Below are positions 2,663 through 59,519 of a stretch of DNA of 64,000 bases, piece after piece. The position numbers and the translations under genes are program-made. Numbering within the stretch: the first letter of the stretch is position 1; each line of letters opens with the position of its first letter. Under the pieces are notes generated by a model that saw only the letters and a program-made list of their open reading frames with translations, did not search any database and was not told the origin of the DNA. The stretch lies in assembly GCF_040947875.1 (NCBI RefSeq), contig NZ_JBFRXN010000002.1, positions 2,170,001 to 2,234,000 on the forward strand, given 5' to 3'. The stretch comes from Pseudomonas sp. MYb118 (GTDB lineage: Bacteria; Pseudomonadota; Gammaproteobacteria; Pseudomonadales; Pseudomonadaceae).

Positions 2663-2948
2663 CTGTAGGAGCGAGCTTGCTCGCGATGGCGGCCTTCCGG
2701 TGTACATATCCGTTGCTGATGGCGCGGCTGCTTTTGGTTCCGCCCTTACTGCGGGTGACTTTGAAGTCCTGTAGGAGCGAGCTTGCTCGCGATGGCGGCC
2801 TTCCGGTGTACATATCCGTTGCTGCTGGCGCGGCTGCTTTTGATTCCGCCCTTACTGCGGGTGACTTTGAAGTCCTGTAGGAGCGAGCTTGCTCGCGATG
2901 GCGGCCTGACGGGTGTACATATCTGTTTTTGCGGGTGCGCCTGCTTTT
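2663..2948. repeat. Tandem 106 bp REP-containing units (three REP heads)
   Basis: CTGTAGGAGCGAGCTTGCTC begins at 2663, 2769 and 2875, giving a period of exactly 106 bases. The first two units carry a GTGTACATATCCGTTGCTG segment, a TTCCGCCCTTACTGCGGG hairpin and end in GACTTTGAAGTC. The third unit runs on into the full-length composite element that follows. The units look like truncated copies of that element. No gene is visible here. Confidence 0.9.
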
Positions 2949-3197
2949 GGTTCCGCCCTTACGGCGGGTGACTTTGGGGCGCCAAAGTCACCAAAACGCC
3001 CGGCCCCTGACGTACGGCCCTTCGCTGGCGCTCCGGGTTCCCTCGCTCCGGTCCTGCTCCGTGGGCGCGCCGCCATCGGCCATCCTTGGCCGAGGGCGGC
3101 TAACCCGGCATCCATGCCGGGTTGCCCACTGCGCAGAACCTCCACTCGGCCTTCCGACGGGGCAATCTGCGTCGCCTGTGAGATCGTGGTTCTGTTT
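2949..3197 (+). repeat. Full-length composite structured repeat, copy 1
   Basis: This ~250-base element recurs nearly identically at 23008-23257 and, inverted, at 50890-51136. It holds at least four hairpins: TCCGCCCTTACGGCGG, GGTGACTTTGG/CCAAAGTCACC, GGCCATCCTTGGCC and the ten-pair stem AACCCGGCAT/ATGCCGGGTT. It is bordered by REP units on both sides. Several frames stay open across it, but the three copies show no sign of a real gene (no ribosome site, no shared start). It encodes no transposase. Confidence 0.85.
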
Positions 3198-3405
3198 CTG
3201 TAGGAGCGAGCTTGCTCGCGATGGCGGCCCGGACACCGCCATCGCGGGCAGGCCCGCTCCCACAGTTACGGTGTGCACCGCGTATTTGGCCATGCAGCAG
3301 ACCCTGTAGGAGCGAGCATGCTCGCGATGGTCGTCAACGATGACGCGGGCAGTCTGATACCCCGCGGTGTTCGGGCCGCCATCGCGAGCAAGCTCGCTCC
3401 TACAA
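3198..3405. repeat. Two inverted REP pairs
   Basis: One REP pair spans 3198-3266, with a variant right arm carrying GGGCAGGCCCGCTCCCACAG. A second pair spans 3304-3405. The last bases of the second pair overlap the end of the ape ketosynthase gene, whose TAG stop at 3400-3402 is the TAG of the REP core CTTGTAGGAGCG. Confidence 0.9.
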
Positions 3406-5827: not shown

Positions 5828-7020
5828 GGGGCGTCTCCGATAATCAGGCTGACGTTATTGCCACCGAAGGCAAAGGAGTTGCTCATCAGGTAGCGAGGTG
5901 CAATGGACGTCAGTTGATCGGTCGGGGTCACCCACTTCAAGGCGGGCAGTTCCGGGTCCTGCTGGCCGTCCCAGACATGGGGTGGCAGCGCTTGCCGATG
6001 GTTGTCCGCGCACAGGCTCAGCCAGCAGAACGCCGCTTCCAGCGCACCCGCCGCGCCCAGGGTGTGGCCGGTCATCGGTTTGGTCGAGGAGCACGGCACG
6101 CCCTGGGTGAACAGGGTGGTCACCGCCTGGCTTTCCATGGCGTCATTGTGAGGGGTCGCGGTGCCGTGCAGGTTCAGGTAGCTGATCTGTTCGGGTTGCA
6201 GGTGCGCCCGGGCCAGGGCCTTGCGCATGGCTTGCAGGGCGCCACGGCCGGTCGGTTCCGGTGCGGAAATATGGTGGGCGTCGGAGCTGGCGCCACTGCC
6301 GAGCAGGGCGATCGACGGTGTGTCGTTGGCCTGCCGGGTCATCAGGAACAGCGCCGCGGCTTCACCGATGTTGATGCCGTTGCGATTCACCGAGAACGGG
6401 TTGCAGCGCTGCGCCGAGACCGCTTCCAGCGCCGAGAAGCCGTTGAGAGTCAGTTTGCACAGGGTATCGACACCGCCGCACAGCACCGCATCGCATACAC
6501 CCAGGTCCAGCAGGCGCTGAGCGCTCATCAATGCCCGGGCGCTGGAAGTGCAGGCGGTGGAAATCACGTAGGCCGGGCCGCTCAATTGCAGCCAGTCGGC
6601 GAGGAAATTCGCCGGCGCCCCCAGTTCCTGTTGCTGATAATCGTAGTCGGCCGGAAATTGCTGCTCGCCGATGTAATGGGCCAGGCCACGGCTGGCTTCG
6701 TCGATGCCCGAGGTGCTGGTGCCCAGGACCACACCGATGCGCTCGCGGCCATAGGTGTGGATGGCGCGGTCGATGTCGCCCTGGATCTGCAACGCCGCTT
6801 CCAGCAGCAGTTGATTGTTGCGGCTGGCTTGCCATGCCATTTCAGGCGGGATCGCTGCCAATGCTCCTTGCACGGCGGCCACCGGTATCGAATGCTCCGG
6901 CACCCAGCCGGCCTCGCTGCGCATGCCGGAGCAATCGCCGGCGAACAGGTTGCGGGCGACCTGCTGTTTGTCCCGGCCCAGGGCGCAGATCACCCCGAGG
7001 GCGTTGAGGTAGGCGGTCAT
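5824..7020 (-). CDS. apeO: Aryl polyene beta-ketoacyl-ACP synthase (ApeO-type)
   Basis: This is a 398-residue ketosynthase with C157 in 'STACTSSARAL', His in 'LNLHGTATPHND' and His in 'KPMTGHTLGAAG'. In the characterised aryl polyene system the ApeO-type enzyme pairs with the Cys-less chain-length factor ApeC to elongate the chain. That partner is encoded at the head of the same operon (20915-21640). The start ATG overlaps the stop of the DUF3261 gene (ATGA). The gene leads the run ketosynthase, dehydratase, ketoreductase, ketosynthase that ends the operon, the same order as apeO-apeP-apeQ-apeR. Confidence 0.9.
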   Translation of the reverse strand: MTAYLNALGVICALGRDKQQVARNLFAGDCSGMRSEAGWVPEHSIPVAAVQGALAAIPPEMAWQASRNNQLLLEAALQIQGDIDRAIHTYGRERIGVVLGTSTSGIDEASRGLAHYIGEQQFPADYDYQQQELGAPANFLADWLQLSGPAYVISTACTSSARALMSAQRLLDLGVCDAVLCGGVDTLCKLTLNGFSALEAVSAQRCNPFSVNRNGINIGEAAALFLMTRQANDTPSIALLGSGASSDAHHISAPEPTGRGALQAMRKALARAHLQPEQISYLNLHGTATPHNDAMESQAVTTLFTQGVPCSSTKPMTGHTLGAAGALEAAFCWLSLCADNHRQALPPHVWDGQQDPELPALKWVTPTDQLTSIAPRYLMSNSFAFGGNNVSLIIGDAP

Positions 7021-7625
7021 GGCGTCTCACCGGTCAGCGGCGTGACCTGATAGGTCGGCCCCTTGGGCAGTTTCAGTTCAAAGTTCAGGGGTTGCGTGTA
7101 GCGCACGTCCCAGTATTCGGGCAGGGAACGTTGGGCGCCATGTTGCCAGGCATCGGGGTAGTTGGCCGGCAGTTCATCGCCGGGCGTCAGGGCGAACACC
7201 AGTGCGGCAAACAGCTCGCGCGCCTCGGGGTTGGGAGGCAGCAAACCGTCGGCCTGCCATCGGCCGTCGATCAGTTTCTGGCGGGCCTGCGGAATGCCCA
7301 GCAGGTCCATCATCGACCAGCGAATGCCCTGGCCTTCACGGGCGATCACCAGCACCCAGTCCTGGCGCTGACCGTCCTCCTGGCGCTGGATGTGCAGTTG
7401 CTGGGGCAGCGGCAGGTTGGGCGCCAGTTCGGGCATCGGCGCGCGGCTGGTGCAGGCGCTGAGCAACAGGAGCGCAGCAAGGATCCCTGTAGGAGCGAGC
7501 TTGCTCGCGATGGCGATCGCCCATCCGAATAATTTGCTGACTGACACGCCGCCATCGTCGGAACGCCGCCCGGAGACAAGCTCGCTCCTACAGGTAGGGT
7601 GTTTCATGCGGCTTGAGGTGAACAT
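7017..7625 (-). CDS. DUF3261 lipoprotein with a REP insertion in its signal region (ApeN-like)
   Basis: The 202-residue product has the DUF3261 body ('WVLVIAREGQGIRWSMMDLLGIPQARQ...') found in aryl polyene clusters. It is thought to be an outer-membrane lipoprotein of the export route. The ATG at 7625 is chosen because it forms TGATG with the methyltransferase stop and follows AAGGG. The N-terminus is odd. Residues 1-11 (MFTSSRMKHPT) look like a charged n-region, residues 48-57 (ILAALLLLSA) are the hydrophobic core, and C58 is the lipobox cysteine. The ~36 residues between them are the translation of an in-frame REP pair (7487-7594). Without it the signal peptide would be ordinary. A GTG at codon 27 (7547) could give an alternative start. 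Export may be impaired. Confidence 0.8.
   Translation of the reverse strand: MFTSSRMKHPTCRSELVSGRRSDDGGVSVSKLFGWAIAIASKLAPTGILAALLLLSACTSRAPMPELAPNLPLPQQLHIQRQEDGQRQDWVLVIAREGQGIRWSMMDLLGIPQARQKLIDGRWQADGLLPPNPEARELFAALVFALTPGDELPANYPDAWQHGAQRSLPEYWDVRYTQPLNFELKLPKGPTYQVTPLTGETP
7487..7594. repeat. REP pair inserted inside the DUF3261 signal-peptide coding region
   Basis: CCTGTAGGAGCGAGCTTGCTC at the left and a variant right arm ending CTCGCTCCTACAGG enclose 108 bases, exactly 36 codons, and no stop codon arises in the reading frame. The right arm has CGTCGGAACGCCGCCCGGAG in place of the usual GCGAG, the same variant arm as at 33410-33452. Confidence 0.92.
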
Positions 7626-8350
7626 CAGGCAACCCTTTCCAGCGGCTTGCGCGCCACCACGTTGACCAGAGTTTCTTCCCGTTGTCCGAAGGGTTTTGGC
7701 TGGCGCAGGCCGAAGCGTTCGAGCAGGCCGAAATCCGTGGAGCGGCTCCACCACAAGTAGGGGTAGGACACATTCTGCGGGGTGAACTCAAAGCCCTGGT
7801 GGGCAATCATCTGCAGGTATTGCGCGGCGCTCTTCTGCACGTGCATGGGGTGGCGGAACAGCCAGCGGATGACCCAGGTGTCGATGTAGGCCTCGGTGGA
7901 TTCGGCGAACAGCAGGTAACCGCCCGGCTTGAGCACACGGTAGAACTCGGCCAGGGCCTTTTCCTGCTCGACCAGGTGATGGAAGGTCTGGTGACAGAAC
8001 AGCAGGTCGACGCTGGCGTCCGGCACCGACAGGGTGGCGCAGTCGCTGCCGATCAGCTCCACCGGCATGCCCAGGCGGGCCGCCTCGGCGCTGCTGACCT
8101 CAAGGCTGTGTGGGTCGGCATCGACCCCGATCAGGCGCTTGGGCGCGAACGTCTGGTGCAGGTGCTGGAACGATTTGCCCTGGCCGCAACCGGCATCGAG
8201 CAGCACCGGCTGGTCGGGCAACGGTTCGCTGAACAGGCTGCGCAGGTCATTGATCGCGACGCGCAGCACGTGGTGCTGCCAGGTGTGGCTGCGCAGGAAC
8301 CAGAGGCCAAAGCGGGTTTCTTCGACGTAGTTGTCGCTCAAGTAATTCAT
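7625..8350 (-). CDS. SAM-dependent methyltransferase of the ape operon
   Basis: This is a 241-residue class I methyltransferase. Motif I is 'VLLDAGCGQGKS', followed by the acidic post-I 'IGVDADP', motif II 'VDLLFCHQTFHHL' and motif III 'LKPGGYLLFAES'. It has the UbiE/Methyltransf_11 layout. A plausible role is methylation of the aryl head group, as proposed for methyltransferases in aryl polyene clusters. It overlaps the flavin enzyme stop by ATGA and the DUF3261 start by one base. Whether it acts on oxygen or carbon cannot be read from sequence. Confidence 0.85.
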   Translation of the reverse strand: MNYLSDNYVEETRFGLWFLRSHTWQHHVLRVAINDLRSLFSEPLPDQPVLLDAGCGQGKSFQHLHQTFAPKRLIGVDADPHSLEVSSAEAARLGMPVELIGSDCATLSVPDASVDLLFCHQTFHHLVEQEKALAEFYRVLKPGGYLLFAESTEAYIDTWVIRWLFRHPMHVQKSAAQYLQMIAHQGFEFTPQNVSYPYLWWSRSTDFGLLERFGLRQPKPFGQREETLVNVVARKPLERVA

Positions 8351-22777: not shown

Positions 22778-23007
22778 CTGTAGGAGCGAGCTTGCTCGCG
22801 ATGGCGGCCTTCCGGTGTACATATCCATTGCCGCCGGCCGCTTCAGGTTCCGCCCCTGTGGGAGCGGGCTTGCCCGCGATGGCGGCCTTCTGGTGTACAT
22901 ATCCGTTGTTGCTGGCCGCTTCAGGTTTCGCCCCTGTGGGAGCGGGCTTGCTCGCGATGGCGGCCTGACGGGTGTACATATCCATTGCTGCGGTCACGCC
23001 TGCTATT
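22778..23007. repeat. Three direct REP units
   Basis: REP heads begin at 22778 (CTGTAGGAGCGAGC), 22856 and 22934 (CTGTGGGAGCGGGC). Each is followed by GTGTACATATCC, with a period of 78 bases. They lead into the second full composite repeat. No gene is visible. Confidence 0.9.
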
Positions 23008-23257
23008 GGTTCCGCCCTTACGGCGGGTTACTTTGTCGCGCCAAAGTAACCAAAACGCCTGGCCCCTGACGTACGGCCCTTCGCTGACGCTCAGGGTTCC
23101 CTCGCTCCGGTCCTGCTCCGTGGGCCCGCCGCCATCGGCCATCCTTGGCCGAGGGCGGCTAACCCGGCATCCATGCCGGGTTGCCCACTGCGCAGAACCT
23201 CCACTCGGCCTTCCGACGGGGCAATCTGCGTCGCCTGTGGAATCGTGGTTTTGCTTT
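23008..23257 (+). repeat. Full-length composite structured repeat, copy 2
   Basis: It matches copy 1 (2949-3197) almost base for base. In the main hairpin the stem reads GGTTACTTTG/CAAAGTAACC instead of GGTGACTTTG/CAAAGTCACC, a paired G-C to T-A change that keeps the stem. Confidence 0.87.
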
Positions 23258-23290
23258 CTGTAGGAGCGAGCATGCTCGCGATGGTGGATC
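23258..23290 (+). repeat. REP unit upstream of trxC terminus
   Basis: A single REP head with the GAGCATGCTC loop variant closes the second repeat cluster, 43 bases from the trxC stop. Confidence 0.85.
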
Positions 23291-50526: not shown

Positions 50527-50889
50527 ATCTGTAGGAACAAATTTGTCGAGGCTTCACGATGAAAGCCCAGACACCGCAGACATTCAGACAGCCCGCGTCA
50601 TCCTTAACGACCCTCGCGACCCACGATCCCACGATCCCACAGGCGCCGCAGATTGCCCCGCCGTAAGGGCGGAACCTTAAGCGGCCGTTACCACAGAAAC
50701 AGATATGTACACCGTAAGGCCGCCATCGCGGGCAAGCCCGCTCCCACAGGAACCCCACCGTACCTGTAGGAGCGAGTTCACTCGCGATGGCGGCCCAGAT
50801 ACCGCAAGCATTCAGGCAGCCCACGTCATCGTTAACGACCATCGCGACGGTTCGACGCCTCGACAGGCTCGCTCCCACAAAAAACTGAA
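50527..50889. repeat. REP units plus an internally deleted composite repeat
   Basis: REP or REP-like units lie at 50527-50560 (variant AACAAATTTGTCGAGGCTTC), 50720-50750, 50764-50795 and 50839-50880. At 50634-50719 the two ends of the composite repeat are joined directly (GATTGCCCCG at 50651-50660 followed by CCGTAAGGGCGG at 50661). The middle 193 bases present in copy 3 are missing. No gene is visible. Confidence 0.83.
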
Positions 50890-51136
50890 ACAGAGCCACG
50901 ATCCCACAGGCGCCACAGATTGCCCCGTCGGAAGGCCGAGTGGAGGTTCTGCGCAGTGGGCAACCCGGCATGGATGCCGGGTTAGCCGCCCTCGGCCAAG
51001 GATGGCCGATGGCGGCGGGCCCACGGAGCAGGACCGGAGCGAGGGAACCCGGAGCGCCAGCGAAGGGCCGTACGTCAGGGGCGGGGCGTTTTGGTTACTT
51101 TGGCGCGACAAAGTAACCCGCCGTAAGGGCGGAACC
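50890..51136 (-). repeat. Full-length composite structured repeat, copy 3 (inverted)
   Basis: It is the reverse complement of copies 1 and 2 and has the GGTTACTTTG/CAAAGTAACC stem of copy 2. It retains the GGCGGCTAACCCGGCATCC hairpin block and the end next to a REP unit. Confidence 0.86.
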
Positions 51137-51318
51137 TTAAGCGGCCGTGACCGCAGAAACGGATATGTACACCCCTAAAGACGCCATCGCGAGCAAGCTC
51201 GCTCCTACAGAGAGTCAAAGTCACCCGCCGTAAGGGCGGAACCAATAGCAGGCGTGACCGCAGCAATGGATATGTACACCCGTCAGGCCGCCATCGCGAG
51301 CAGGCTCGCTCCCACAGG
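51137..51318. repeat. Truncated composite units with two REP heads
   Basis: Two units with GATATGTACACC (or its variant) and CCGCCGTAAGGGCGG carry REP arms at 51183-51210 and 51289-51318. They correspond, inverted, to the 106 bp tandem units near 2663. Confidence 0.85.
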
Positions 51319-59411: not shown

Positions 59412-59519
59412 CTGTAGGAGCGAGCTTGCTCGCGATGGCGCCAGCACATTCAACCCATGTGTTGACTGAGACACCGCCATCGCGACGGTTCGACGCCTCG
59501 ACAAGCTCGCTCCTACAGT
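59412..59519. repeat. REP pair with extended right arm, glnE-waaF gap
   Basis: The left unit begins CTGTAGGAGCGAGC at 59412. The right arm carries GACGGTTCGACGCCTCGAC in place of GCGAG before AAGCTCGCTCCTACAG, the same variant as at 50839-50880. It separates glnE from the LPS core genes. Confidence 0.88.

Follow-up and report, generated by a model that had tools for sequence, protein, structure and literature searches.

A REPIN, in which two inverted REP arms enclose a loop, lies in frame within the signal-peptide codons of a LolB-like lipoprotein gene of Pseudomonas sp. MYb118, and comparison with related loci indicates that it is translated. Our overall reading of these sequences is that an old REPIN insertion is probably read from a TGATG start as a long n-region, with the reading frame and its openness under selection and the loop-encoded residues free to change. 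The features concerned are listed in Table 1; "the window" denotes the whole stretch of 64,000 nucleotides that was analysed (contig NZ_JBFRXN010000002.1, positions 2,170,001 to 2,234,000), in whose coordinates all positions are given.

Table 1. Features of the lipoprotein locus in the window.
Feature	Position	Strand	Remark
SAM-dependent methyltransferase gene	7625..8350	-	upstream neighbour with overlapping stop
TGATG	7623..7627	-	methyltransferase stop overlapping the lipoprotein ATG start
LolB-like (ApeN/DUF3261-like) lipoprotein gene	7017..7625	-	202 aa; open frame and homologs; putatively translated through the REPIN
REPIN	7488..7592	-	105 bp = 35 codons, TGTAGG...CCTACA, residues 12-46; 5' arm is the long-loop variant
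REP arm, 5' on gene strand	7577..7594	-	
In-frame GTG within the REPIN loop	7545..7547	-	candidate alternative start
REP arm, 3' on gene strand	7486..7503	-	codes for SKLAPTG, in which Lys42 is the last positive charge ahead of the hydrophobic core
Hydrophobic core and lipobox	7452..7484	-	ILAALLLLSA-C58; shorter than in relatives

The lipoprotein frame is uninterrupted from the ATG at 7625 to the stop at 7017. Eleven codons separate the start from the REPIN, after which come the hydrophobic core and Cys58. By inspection, residues 54-58 form the lipobox LLSAC, with Cys58 at 7454-7452, as in a lipoprotein signal. The neighbouring genes encode the methyltransferase, a halogenase/FAD-oxidoreductase-like protein, an MMPL-type exporter, a ketoacyl synthase and an ApeP-type dehydratase, and the cluster is of the aryl-polyene type. 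According to an excerpt of PMC8253772, ApeN is a LolB-like protein with DUF3261 that is encoded in aryl polyene clusters. The window gene likewise has genes for a ketoacyl synthase and an ApeP-type dehydratase as neighbours and shares its cluster with an MMPL-type exporter gene, but it differs from ApeN as presented in that excerpt in having a REPIN in its signal and in its weak Pfam match. The PF11659 (DUF3261) HMM gave no match to the window protein, the Pfam gathering score not being reached, and weak matches to four of seven alignment members (best E 0.019). HMM support for the DUF3261 label used in the first-pass annotation is weak; the label rests mainly on the cluster context, and the lipoprotein is called ApeN/DUF3261-like here.

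The two arms of the window REPIN, 18 bp each, are 100% complementary and inverted around the loop. Together with the open frame, they bear out the earlier proposal that a REP pair sits in frame inside a lipoprotein signal region. The insert had been given as 108 bases adding 36 residues; it does contain a REP pair with both arms, but 108 includes flanking bases, and the REPIN itself has the length given in Table 1. Genome-wide, the 22-nt REP core with at most two mismatches was found 1,367 times in the forward and 1,322 times in the reverse orientation, against 0 matches of a reversed-pattern control, which excludes a chance origin of the pair. A second REPIN of equal 103-bp GTAG-to-CTAC length is located at 59414-59516 of the window. 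On both sides of a Y1_Tnp gene (L259, G000:C2:1388295-1388615), which matches PF01797, there are REPINs of the window type, and this gene is likely the RAYT of the window REPIN population. REPs are named for being extragenic. The window element has the inverted arms, the genome-wide population and the associated REP-flanked Y1 transposase gene of a REPIN, and lies within a gene instead of strictly outside genes. The element may be mobile; its copy number, absence in relatives and arm types that track the host are indirect signs. Elsewhere in the window, REPs are grouped in the same orientation at 2665-3320, 22780-23274 and 50733-51315, with spacings of about 106, 78 and 107-131 bp, respectively, and one gap of about 325 bp per group.

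Homologs of the lipoprotein occurred in 324 of the 398 Pseudomonas genomes searched. For comparison, we used 30 and 100 loci among the matches listed and 80 of 127 named loci, which left 177 distinct loci after de-duplication. This sample is non-random: homologs were ranked by similarity to a REPIN-containing query and the best part of the list was used, so that it leans to REPIN carriers, and species counts represent non-independent events. Among the 177 loci, 86 matched both REP arms, 8 matched one arm and 83 matched neither. An insertion specific to this strain, as first assumed, is contradicted by the 86 loci with both arms at the same place, while the insert-free allele sought by alignment with relatives was found among the 83 loci matching neither arm. 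Among the loci examined, the 36 residues were not found in any Pseudomonas lacking REPs, and the 59 REP-bearing relatives that were counted all have their own REP populations. Two of the 86 two-arm loci (L078 and L081) have only a single 24-bp REP that matches both arm patterns and no REPIN, and one of the eight one-arm matches (L117) was judged by eye to be chance. Carriers among the named records include P. mandelii OWC5, P. lini, P. frederiksbergensis, P. gregormendelii, P. moorei and P. jessenii DSM 17150, whereas P. umsongensis DSM 16611, P. mucoides, P. simiae, P. cedrina and the P. mandelii-labelled strains 6A1 and RIT-562 are examples without the element.

The element was 90 bp long in 71 of the 86 two-arm loci, 100 bp in five, 105 bp in five, 24 bp in two, and 87, 89 and 120 bp in one each; the 89-bp element is that of L092, which is out of frame and has a core spacing of 62. 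In the five 100-bp elements, at distinct loci, the 5' arm sits in another frame. Since they are in frame as wholes and 100 is not a multiple of 3, their flanks compensate. By eye, six loci appeared scar-like, with few or no REP bases remaining and the frame still kept (L012, L029, L054, L059, L234 and L241). A different in-frame repeat, encoding a peptide like WRGGLPPLGCEAAP...RGQAPSPQ, lies upstream of the lipobox in L026 (the same locus as L180, its P. arsenicoxydans E3 record), counted above among the one-arm loci, and in L232 (Pseudomonas sp. ANT_J12), counted among those without arms, indicating that more than one element family has used the signal-peptide site. At L087, the inverted repeat is longer than the REP arms and extends outward on both sides into the flanking sequence, as though REPIN and flanks had changed jointly.

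Searching for further proteins that carry a REPIN returned 17 database matches. The 12 examined belonged either to this family or to REP-rich open frames lacking Pfam domains, and no second gene was among them. The window and 40 stretches of 20 kb together hold 39 REPINs, and 12 open frames of at least 130 aa span one. By eye, only the frame at the window locus, which was given beforehand, was gene-like with homologous protein on both sides.

The gene's frame was open through the whole element in all 86 two-arm loci, and an in-frame ATG lay upstream of the element in 82 of them, the exceptions being L032, L092, L183 and L201, the last of which lies where its contig begins. TGATG preceded the element in 74 of the 86. 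From this start to the core, 73 of the 74 were in frame and open, with 16 distinct distances between 87 and 183 nt. The exception was L092, at 143 nt, which is out of frame through one missing base in an A-run; this single-contig genome has a listed completeness of 95%, and the frameshift is possibly a sequencing error or a dying allele. The 12 two-arm loci without an upstream TGATG, some of which have TAATG, were assessed by the open-frame test. L032 (also L203; P. fluorescens PS645) has TGATT, that is, ATT in place of ATG, with the REPIN in frame behind it, and would need an ATT start or another start upstream. The annotation of database entries with NCBI names (P0003, P0005, P0008, P0013 and P0015) starts upstream of the REPIN, and annotated proteins including the REPIN stretch exist. 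The gene tree requires at least 18 changes of length among 68 taxa with a distance above 30 nt (a lower bound from soft polytomies; the set includes L110 and L130, at 33 nt and without REPIN), and only L092 leaves the frame.

In the distance scan, values for L018, L019, L029, L038, L069 and L115 were set by hand, and L039, L040, L043 and L131 have none. Besides L092, the scan flagged the distances of L033 (74) and L135 (215) as not multiples of 3. L033 has no upstream methyltransferase match, its TGATG match falls inside the loop, and its frame is open from an upstream ATG; L135, which lacks a REPIN, has a start of its own close to the core. A methyltransferase match directly upstream was also absent in L018, L019, L038 and 12 others of the 130 loci, in some of which the lipoprotein gene appears directly after the oxidoreductase gene.

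Stop codons and core spacing were compared with REPINs elsewhere, and substitution rates between the loop and the mature protein. All 42 locus REPINs were free of stops in the gene's frame, as against 56 of 186 oriented copies elsewhere (Fisher 7e-19, ignoring shared ancestry). The other two frames showed no difference (35/42 versus 140/186, p 0.32; 9/42 versus 28/186, p 0.35). The background consisted of 93 REPINs of spacing 63 in both orientations, 17 from the window, L001-L008 and L139-L178, and 76 from three genomes. When the locus loops were grouped into 15 clusters (single linkage, 8 of 44 differences) and each cluster was taken as one trial, treated as independent, the probability was 0.30^15 = 1.5e-8. 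Among 130 loci, 44 REPINs were recognised by the strict core pattern, with a spacing of 63 in 42, 62 in one (L092) and 73 in one (L041). Across 59 genomes, spacings of 63 and 62 numbered 9,043 and 4,037, respectively, and our comparison rests on this genome-wide ratio, which is less extreme than a smaller baseline of 30 REPINs in 40 stretches (63 in 14 and 62 in 13; Fisher 5e-6 versus the locus). The loop had a dN/dS of 1.01 and the mature protein one of 0.20, as pooled descriptive values from 61 related and overlapping pairs of 42 loci (mature synonymous divergence below 0.40, loops less than 30% different). The arm values (0.56 and 4.36) are uninterpretable because the palindromes constrain the arms. 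These results indicate that the frame and its openness are constrained and the encoded residues are not, and as comparative data they point to translation of the locus REPIN.

The 3' arm of typical loci encodes a Lys or Arg a short way ahead of the hydrophobic core. Between the element and the Cys, 14 of the 86 two-arm loci, the window included, have no Arg or Lys, and in the window genome and some others the Lys/Arg of the 3' arm is the nearest positive charge left before the core. These residues may be used functionally as n-region charge. In the window, the sequence after the insert is an incomplete core, with a 24-nt alignment gap relative to relatives. The first-pass annotation had the flanking parts joining into a normal-looking signal once the insert is removed; what follows the insert is not the relatives' full core and carries no Arg or Lys before the Cys.

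We propose that a RAYT-mobilised REPIN inserted into the N-terminal signal-peptide codons of an ApeN-like gene in an ancestor of many Pseudomonas species. Translation from the overlapping TGATG start would then proceed through the REPIN, giving a precursor whose n-region is about 35 or more residues longer than in insert-free relatives. Judging from the lipobox and conservation, signal peptidase II would cut off the whole extension and leave the mature lipoprotein unchanged. Selection would maintain a length that is a multiple of 3 and a stop-free gene frame, the pattern seen in the comparison of loci, with no detectable selection on loop-encoded residues save the 3'-arm Lys/Arg before the core. 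Within this limit, the element appears to keep changing: its arms come to match whichever REP type prevails in the host, its loop is exchanged or degenerates, and in some lineages nothing but scars is left; retyping would occur by gene conversion or re-insertion.

Translation might instead start downstream of the REPIN, at an ATG, GTG or TTG by the core, or inside it at the GTG at 7547, so that the REPIN would be an untranslated 5' element. The same is argued in an excerpt of PMC3733652, where most N-terminal REPs, located at the 5' end of ORFs in P. putida, C. koseri and S. maltophilia, are judged not to be coding. Downstream of the element, 18 of the 86 loci have an in-frame ATG, and GTG or TTG occurs in many more, the window's GTG recurs at its position in 10 of 42 typical locus loops, and insert-free relatives begin beside the core (MIRFLLLG). 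However, such a start would not predict that the frame is kept and stops are avoided both before the REPIN and within it, and in 12 of the 86 loci no in-frame ATG, GTG or TTG exists between the element and the last 8 codons before the Cys; we consider it improbable. It is also decidedly unlikely that the REPIN is kept for regulation, as an mRNA hairpin just after the start codon that tunes translation. The REPIN region folds at -76.2 kcal/mol (z -2.96), with 3 of 200 shuffles equal or better, and arm types match at most loci where both could be typed (see below), but arm pairing is expected of any REPIN and regulation alone predicts no avoidance of stops in a single frame. The hairpin is dispensable, given the 83 of 177 loci without either arm and the several scars. 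A third alternative, an inactive gene or a mislocalised product in strains with the REPIN, is very improbable: the 57 residues ahead of the lipobox Cys are long and L092 is frameshifted, but the mature protein is conserved among REPIN-bearing loci (dN/dS as above), and an internal stop occurs in only one of the matches listed, L135, which has no REPIN. Among the three outcomes envisaged by the first-pass annotation, export from the long N-terminus agrees best with the data, since across relatives the gene's frame is both kept and held free of stops; the GTG start is confined to a minority of loops, and a dead product does not fit the mature dN/dS. Strain accident, pseudogene and pure mRNA element were considered as readings of the locus and ranked low.

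Whichever way the element is read, its origin is a separate question. In 59 of 93 exactly typed arms (52 of 59 genomes), the type at the locus was the one of five REP types most frequent in the host; 5,000 shuffles of the genomes averaged 21.9 and reached at most 47, and shared ancestry contributes to the observed match. Where both arms were exactly typed, they were of equal type in 36 of 41 loci. The distribution could, somewhat improbably in our view, stem from many unrelated insertions at a hotspot and not from one or a few old insertions retyped in place. In its favour, presence on a 114-taxon tree (leaving out L033, L135, L039, L040, L043 and L131) requires 16 changes (at least 30 when shuffled), or 5 when weak nodes are collapsed, and other acquisitions at the site did occur, namely the 100-bp elements with the other-frame 5' arm and the unrelated repeat. 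On the other hand, flanks are alignable between loci with different arm types, and locus loops differ from each other at a mean of 14.5 of 44 positions, compared with 18.9 between locus and background and 18.7 within the background. The same holds across arm types (15.5 versus 19.4, the latter from 11 background loops). Alignable flanks and closer loops across arm types suggest in-place replacement of the arms or the whole element. Tentatively, and as a possibility that we rate somewhat below even, the REPIN may be young sequence at an old site, kept in one signal peptide across species divergence, retyped to the host's REPs, filtered for frame and stops, and serving in some lineages as a source of n-region charge. 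If this is true, such a long-resident, retyped locus is a natural recorder of REPIN turnover and of tolerable n-region length.

The first-pass annotation called an in-frame coding insertion unusual. Intragenic GTAG and CGTC REPs are known from PMC3733652, an excerpt of which describes REP dimers and groups in ORFs that encode 20-30 residues, or more for clusters, and notes N-terminal cases, though evidence comparable to that presented here does not appear in that excerpt. Most N-terminal copies are judged non-coding there, whereas frame, stops, spacing and dN/dS across many species suggest translation at the present locus. In the portion of Bertels and Rainey (2011; PMC3116915) consulted, which concerns Pseudomonas REPIN/RAYT systems, REPs are counted in extragenic space. 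The window REPIN resembles those systems in its two inverted arms and loop, thousands of REP copies and a REPIN-flanked Y1 transposase gene, and differs from them, as described there, in lying within a gene and apparently being read as protein. Rickettsia palindromic elements (RPE), cited in the same excerpt of PMC3733652, are palindromic in-frame repeats in likely functional proteins. They belong to other bacteria and other element families, whereas here a signal peptide is involved and arms track the host's REPs, so that the analogy is one of behaviour only. In-frame REP and RPE insertions are thus already known; searches of the open-licence literature found neither a report of a signal peptide that contains a REPIN nor one of such an element being translated over a long residence in a Pseudomonas signal peptide.

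The locus provides a natural comparative series of full elements, longer and shorter variants, scars and insert-free alleles, which suggests that genes can carry a mobile hairpin in translated form, with only its frame constrained. It makes testable how long and how arbitrary the n-region of a lipoprotein may be, and how REPINs get replaced at a fixed site.
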